NCBI GenBank assembly: GCA_009929715.1
Contig: RZZX01000003.1
Location: 1 to 64,000, forward strand
From: Bacteroidia bacterium
GTDB lineage: Bacteria > Bacteroidota > Bacteroidia > Bacteroidales > Bacteroidaceae
Direction of reading: 5' to 3'
Length of the DNA stretch: 64,000 nucleotides
Numbering within the stretch: position 1 is the stretch's first letter; each line of letters begins with the position of its first letter. Both the position numbers and the translations under genes were made by a program. Of the stretch, positions 50,604 through 50,834 are shown in pieces. The notes beneath the pieces were generated by a model, which saw only the letters and a list, made by a program, of their open reading frames with translations, was not told the origin of the DNA and did not search any database.

Positions 50604-50834
50604 TAATATGACAACAACATGAGAACAGACAACCATTTCTTTTCACTAATTTGGTGTGCATTTCATTCGAATGCATACCAAATGTTGTCTATGTCTCCCC
50701 GAATGTGCTGCTAGCAGCACATATAAACCTATTATACGATCTCTACCGATCTGTTTATCGCATTGCATATCCGATAAACCTCTACATTCCCTTCCATTAT
50801 TCATCATTAAGAAAATTAAACTAATAAACCCATT
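50604..50834 (+). promoter_or_regulatory. Structured metY leader with possible attenuator
   Basis: The 230-nt leader holds three stable stems: 50649-50661 with 50671-50683 (13 bp, one G-T); the perfect palindrome ATGTGCTGCTAGCAGCACAT (50703-50722); and GTTTATCG (50753-50760) with CGATAAAC (50772-50779). A leader ORF (50619-50714) runs through the first two. The last stem lacks a T-run, so control may act on translation or transcript stability. No SAM riboswitch is recognised. Confidence 0.6.
50619..50714 (+). CDS. Putative sulfur-amino-acid leader peptide (31 aa) of metY
   Basis: An ATG at 50619, 22 bp after the -7 element, opens a 31-codon frame ending at TAG 50712-50714. The peptide starts MRTDNHFFSLIWCAFHSNAY and ends QMLSMSPRMCC, giving three Met and two adjacent Cys in the last ten residues. 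The ATG-TGC-TGC-TAG codons form the left arm of a perfect 20-nt palindrome. A ribosome stalled at Met or Cys codons would change folding of the hairpins downstream, as in classic amino-acid attenuators. It is too short for coding statistics and is inferred from position, residue content and overlap with structure. Confidence 0.55.
   Translation: MRTDNHFFSLIWCAFHSNAYQMLSMSPRMCC

Follow-up and report, generated by a model that had tools for sequence, protein, structure and literature searches.

A conserved, putative methionine/cysteine leader peptide upstream of metY in Bacteroidota

The window analyzed here, a stretch of 64,000 nt from Bacteroidia bacterium (GCA_009929715.1, contig RZZX01000003.1, positions 1 to 64,000), carries on its forward strand the gene metY for O-acetylhomoserine sulfhydrylase (50835 to 52130; TIGR01326, 670 bits against a cutoff of 495), the putative regulated gene, with the co-oriented cysK for cysteine synthase A as its upstream neighbor (49595 to 50542; TIGR01139, 435 bits above the cutoff). 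MetY forms homocysteine and can form cysteine, so that methionine and cysteine would be fitting signals for its control. Behind cysK lies an inverted repeat, AAATACCA-N6-TGGTATTT (ATACCA-N6-TGGTAT; 50548 to 50569, not assigned to a strand), which overlaps the metY promoter at its -33 region and is probably the operator of some metY transcription factor. The motif ATAYY-N8-GGTAT precedes the promoter or leader at all ten of the Arg-Met-Cys-type leaders described below, and TACC-N4-10-GGTA occurs in 48 of 185 metY upstream regions; the palindrome is also found at many metY loci that have no leader. The -7 promoter element, TACTTTTG (50590 to 50597, forward strand), is of the Bacteroidota type with the consensus TAnnTTTG, and in 10/10 homologous leaders TAnnTTTR is found no more than 60 nt ahead of the leader start. 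A scan for E. coli-type promoters found no match, as expected for a host belonging to the Bacteroidota.

The promoter is followed by the leader ORF, MRTDNHFFSLIWCAFHSNAYQMLSMSPRMCC (ATG at 50619, end at 50714, forward strand), which has homologous ORFs at nine other distinct loci. The first-pass annotation had described 31 codons beginning 22 bp past the promoter and ending Met-Leu-Ser-Met-Ser-Pro-Arg-Met-Cys-Cys-stop, and direct reading confirmed this (C-terminal end MLSMSPRMCC, TAG at 50712 to 50714). As the ATG stands 22 nt downstream of the -7 element, the 5' UTR should be about 15 nt long. The last codons, CGA-ATG-TGC-TGC-TAG (50700 to 50714, forward strand), encode Arg-Met-Cys-Cys-stop and are the presumed stall codons. 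Such an end is rare: among 812 ATG ORFs of 8 to 70 amino acids on both strands of the window, the leader alone has at least five Met/Cys among its last 12 residues, and when the 231 nt before metY were dinucleotide-shuffled 2,000 times, a comparable Met/Cys ORF never arose. NCBIfam held no family for any of the seven leader peptides tried. Just ahead of the leader is a four-codon ORF, ATG-ACA-ACA-ACA-TGA (ATGACAACAACATGA; 50608 to 50622, forward strand), whose stop overlaps the leader ATG and whose ATGACAACA part matches the leader starts of two relatives, L043 and L049; this likeness suggests that the leader start has shifted in the window.

The RNA of this region is predicted to be highly structured, the fold of 50604 to 50860 reaching -51.5 kcal/mol against -28.9 kcal/mol for shuffles (z, -5.8; 0/200 shuffles as stable). 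Folding and inverted-repeat searches place three hairpins on the forward strand. In hairpin A (50628 to 50689), a GACAAC/GTTGTC helix surrounds a stem at 50649 to 50683; this earlier stem had been noted with 13 bp, and the stem itself stands, with arms of 14 nt at a 93% match. Hairpin B (50703 to 50722) pairs the Met-Cys-Cys codons with bases past the stop, and the stop codon sits in its loop. It is the perfect 20-nt palindrome that had been reported over ATG-TGC-TGC-TAG, with arms of 10 and 10 nt matching at 100%, and the pairing exceeds that of shuffled right arms (p = 0.001). Hairpin C (50753 to 50779), with 11-nt arms at a 91% match, is equaled in stability by 2/100 shuffles and, as had also been observed, is not followed by a T-run.

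The closest metY orthologs found (84 to 88% identity) come from Bacteroidales outside the window's genus and family, for the most part from metagenome-assembled genomes (MAGs) of Tannerellaceae and Dysgonomonadaceae from termite guts. Several of them have a leader in the corresponding position, and with further ones from a search in the family of genome G290 the set comprises ten distinct leaders (the window, L043, L049, L061, L063, L262, L265, L266, L269, and L157), in all of which CGAATGTGCT (CGA-ATG-TGC-T, Arg-Met-Cys) is unchanged. The rest of the peptide is variable, as expected of a leader, and its N-terminal part cannot be aligned among the leaders; a Met-Leu-Ser stretch and the outer GACAAC/GTTGTC helix of hairpin A are common to the window, L043, and L049. 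Pairing between the codons and the bases past the stop exceeded that of shuffled right arms in 8/10 homologs (p ≤ 0.021; L061, p = 0.055; L157, p = 0.12) and is kept although the noncoding arm of hairpin B varies, being CAGCAC in most leaders, CGGCAC in L269, GCAGTACA shifted by one in L043, and CAGCACGTT in L049. As the left arm is invariant coding sequence, the support for hairpin B consists of this retained complementarity of the noncoding arm, covariation not being demonstrable. The first-pass annotation had named missing conservation of the ORF or its codons at metY orthologs as grounds for rejecting a leader; the invariant codons of ten leaders and the hairpin in eight of them point the other way.

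The same annotation had taken Bacteroides as its frame, and this did not hold: the nearest orthologs and leaders lie in other Bacteroidales families, and no leader turned up when 159 genomes of the window's genus were searched by DNA. The readable same-genus metY genes (75 to 78% identity; L005 and L007) follow cysK at 35 to 75 nt with no leader between. Many close metY orthologs are leaderless, including all same-genus ones seen, which indicates that the leader was repeatedly lost or gained. The 15-base DNA pattern for Arg-Met-Cys-Cys-stop was rejected as a detector; it gave about 130 matches in 393 Bacteroidales genomes, mostly by chance, and since at 29 of 30 inspected loci there was no such leader before a recognizable gene, the exception being the window's own, searches were anchored on metY instead. 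The metY of the window is up to 88% identical to Tannerellaceae and Dysgonomonadaceae genes, compared with at most 78% to those of its assigned genus; the source MAG has 8% contamination, and this affinity of metY may reflect transfer or misbinning.

Anchored on metY, the search extended the leader across the Bacteroidota. With a leader defined as an ATG ORF at most 350 nt upstream with at least five Met/Cys in a 12-residue stretch, 58 of 185 metY orthologs of at least 60% identity were preceded by one, whereas the opposite strand gave 1 and shuffled sequence would give 0.4; the sample consists of the best metY matches uncorrected for phylogenetic kinship, and its percentages describe the sample only. 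In a class-level sample, a leader was present at 34 of 56 metY orthologs. The distant leaders have Met/Cys runs of differing length and order and often lack the Arg, with ends such as SRMCMCCCCC-stop (Pontibacter, L103), GRMRCCCPCCR-stop (Hymenobacter, L117), LMCCCMCCCMC-stop (Flavobacteriales, L102), GMMMGRMSMFMA-stop (Marinilabilia, L104), and MMQMCMMMCCCMQWRENVLNQS-stop (L109, labeled Ignavibacteria, and L110, labeled Kapaibacterium). Among leaders with at least five Met/Cys, 25 of the 82 cases that could be counted have an Arg directly ahead of Met, although Arg makes up only 4% of residues. CGA is used for 19 of these 25 Arg codons, compared with 9 of 68 other Arg codons (Fisher p = 2e-8, a value inflated by shared ancestry); one possible reason is that CGA acts as a slow codon that places the ribosome ahead of the sensing codons.

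What follows the Met/Cys codons differs among relatives. At L109, L230, and L241, the Met/Cys run is followed by codons that can pair with the left arm of a U-run terminator (duplex, -11.7 to -19.7 kcal/mol), an anti-terminator and terminator arrangement that has, judging from the sequence, the classical attenuator design; weaker anti-terminator matches were seen at L226 and L248, and at L228 GTGTCTGGA lies opposite TCCAGACAC by eye. Five loci (L226, L228, L230, L241, and L248) carry tandem Met/Cys leaders, the first of which is also followed by a U-run hairpin. Two further loci, L217 and L227, have two Met/Cys ORFs each and no clear terminators. Folding with a masked ribosome at L104, L105, and L097 exchanged one hairpin for another according to whether the ribosome stood at the stop or last Met or at the Met codons. 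Many of the loci searched have a SAM-I aptamer (RF00162) before the Met/Cys leader (L096, L099, L102, L103, L113, L116, L117, L119, L202, L208, L209, L216, L223, L231, and L198). At L103 the leader ATG lies about 16 nt past the aptamer, and SAM may act there on leader translation. We think it reasonably probable that MetY is under modular Met/Cys leader control throughout the phylum, in which a shared sensor, a short ORF that closes with Met/Cys codons, often directly behind a CGA codon, would be combined with intrinsic terminators, tandem attenuators, a SAM-I aptamer, or a stop-codon hairpin; the last output, that of the window, would need no intrinsic terminator.

No intrinsic U-run terminator was found before metY in the window, where the only terminator-like match of the scanner was hairpin A, inside the ORF. 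Neither the window nor five relatives showed a pairing competing with hairpin C better than in shuffles, and no conserved anti-terminator was found in the window's leader group. When the window was folded with a masked ribosome, only hairpin B varied with ribosome position, and hairpin C formed in every state. The spacer between leader and metY (120 nt; 50715 to 50834, forward strand) is C-rich and G-poor (C 30% and G 9% in its first 80 nt) and forms a candidate Rho-entry region, its C-G skew being above that of 99% of 124 leaderless metY upstream regions. The spacers of L049, L061, and L063 reach 92 to 98% on this scale, and that of L043 is average, at the 73rd percentile. Because hairpin C has no U-run, no competing pairing rose above shuffles, and the spacer is C-rich and G-poor, Rho-dependent termination is placed first as the output step in the window, ahead of translational control or a weak hairpin C; this ranking is a first guess.

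That a conserved Met/Cys leader controls metY is well supported by the sequence comparisons, whereas ribosome stalling and the response to amino acids we infer from how leader peptides are known to work. It is highly likely, in our judgment, that the ORF is a translated leader peptide of metY, at which a stall in Met/Cys scarcity would let transcription through and which would otherwise give way to a stop in the spacer, most likely by Rho. The promoter would drive a transcript whose first ORF ends Arg-Met-Cys-(Cys)-stop. With Met-tRNA or Cys-tRNA scarce, the ribosome would stall at CGA-ATG-TGC-TGC, hold hairpin B open, and remain on the RNA while RNA polymerase proceeds into metY. With Met and Cys plentiful, it would end quickly at TAG and depart, and transcription would stop in the spacer, most likely and speculatively via Rho, keeping MetY production low. 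A second layer of control would probably come from a transcription factor bound to the palindromic operator. A possible Met/Cys-sensing, ribosome-mediated leader regulator was also the reading of the first-pass annotation, and the ten homologous leaders and the divergent Met/Cys leaders before metY across the Bacteroidota support it.

That a random short ORF ends by chance in Met/Cys codons beside unrelated hairpins is extremely improbable. The unalignable N-terminal part and the many metY orthologs without a leader would suit such an accident, but the shuffles, the singularity of the ORF among the 812, the ten conserved homologs, and the excess of leaders among the 185 orthologs oppose it, and we regard it as already refuted by conservation. 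An operator-bound transcription factor could be the only regulator and the leader a decaying relic, as the presence of the operator with or without a leader and the many orthologs that keep operator and promoter only might suggest; with leader end and hairpin visibly constrained in ten divergent loci, we consider this very unlikely. The identity of Arg-Met-Cys to the residue in ten leaders and the excess of Arg ahead of Met would also fit a nascent peptide, Arg-Met-Cys-Cys, that arrests the ribosome in response to a metabolite, for example S-adenosylmethionine, and not to uncharged tRNA. The constraint, however, lies partly at the codon level, in the preference for CGA, and the varying distant runs, often devoid of Arg, are what codon counting predicts and a peptide motif does not, making such an arrest quite doubtful.

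Two further alternatives accept the leader and change its output. It could act on metY translation or mRNA stability, through reinitiation or structure in the 120-nt spacer, which we hold to be a tentative possibility: the window's group has no intrinsic terminator, and a passage of PMC13236596, citing Canestrari 2020, describes mycobacterial cysteine leaders as translation attenuators, but the predicted fold leaves the region around the metY start unpaired, the leader stop at 120 nt from the metY ATG is too far for simple coupling, and relatives use transcription terminators. Alternatively, hairpin C might be a weak intrinsic terminator, with ATAAAC (50724 to 50729) as an anti-terminator that pairs with GTTTAT (50753 to 50758). 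The five closest relatives examined have a hairpin at +25 to +54 past the stop, with a sequence differing from that of hairpin C, and in L063 T-rich sequence comes after it; the absence of a T-run in the window, L043, and L061, together with a competing pairing that 104 of 300 shuffles matched and that is not conserved, renders this unlikely.

By analogy, the window's leader would work like an amino-acid leader-peptide attenuator. It shares with the trpL, hisL, and ilvL attenuators of Proteobacteria a short, translatable upstream ORF rich in codons for the product and overlapping hairpins; it differs from the trp and his systems in that it would sense Met and Cys, in that its codons close the ORF and its stop sits in a hairpin loop, and in having no intrinsic terminator. 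Mutually exclusive anti-terminator and terminator structures were found neither in the window nor in five relatives, and because these and an intrinsic terminator were tested and absent there, we do not class it as the trp/his type, although some Bacteroidia relatives and L109 and L110 do have an anti-terminator and U-run terminator of that kind. Rho-dependent leader control of the tnaC kind would call for a C-rich, G-poor, unstructured Rho-entry region past the leader stop; the spacer skew stands at the 99th percentile in the window and between the 73rd and 98th percentiles in four relatives, and Rho action there is a possibility. A passage of PMC13236596 presents M. tuberculosis ilvB1, with a leader rich in branched-chain amino acids, as a ribosome-mediated attenuator and, citing Canestrari et al. 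2020, mycobacterial polycysteine upstream ORFs that, like the window's, have Cys codons near the stop and control sulfur/cysteine genes. As described there, the latter are leaderless translation attenuators of Actinobacteria with Cys only, whereas the window has a 5' UTR, mixed Met and Cys, and metY; identity with them was ruled out, since the ORF starts 22 nt past the -7 element and ends Met-Cys-Cys. The SAM-I riboswitch controls methionine genes and precedes metY in many Bacteroidota, with a Met/Cys leader after it; neither the window nor L043 and L049, which were the two close relatives searched, gave a SAM-I match. Identity of the window's leader with a SAM riboswitch or T-box was rejected for want of an Rfam model match, and the only Rfam hit, to STnc460 on the opposite strand (30 bits against a gathering score of 70), was dismissed as chance.

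A 2010 survey treated leader-peptide attenuation as proteobacterial and actinobacterial and added the Firmicutes (PMC2965389). For Bacteroidota, the passages concerned offer only hints so far: leader-peptide attenuation was suggested for amino-acid operons of Flavobacterium psychrophilum (PMC9723704), and 5'-UTR small ORFs with hints of leader peptides were described in B. thetaiotaomicron (PMC7366714), with no Met/Cys leader or metY named in those passages. In the main texts of the open-access papers searched, no description of such a leader ahead of metY was found. If our reading is true, a Met/Cys leader at a central sulfur-assimilation gene would be a directly testable amino-acid sensor for the Bacteroidota. 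The window's leader poses the question of attenuation without a visible intrinsic terminator, and conservation of such leaders over much of the phylum, with output modules swapped, would make them a good case for studying the evolution of RNA regulators.
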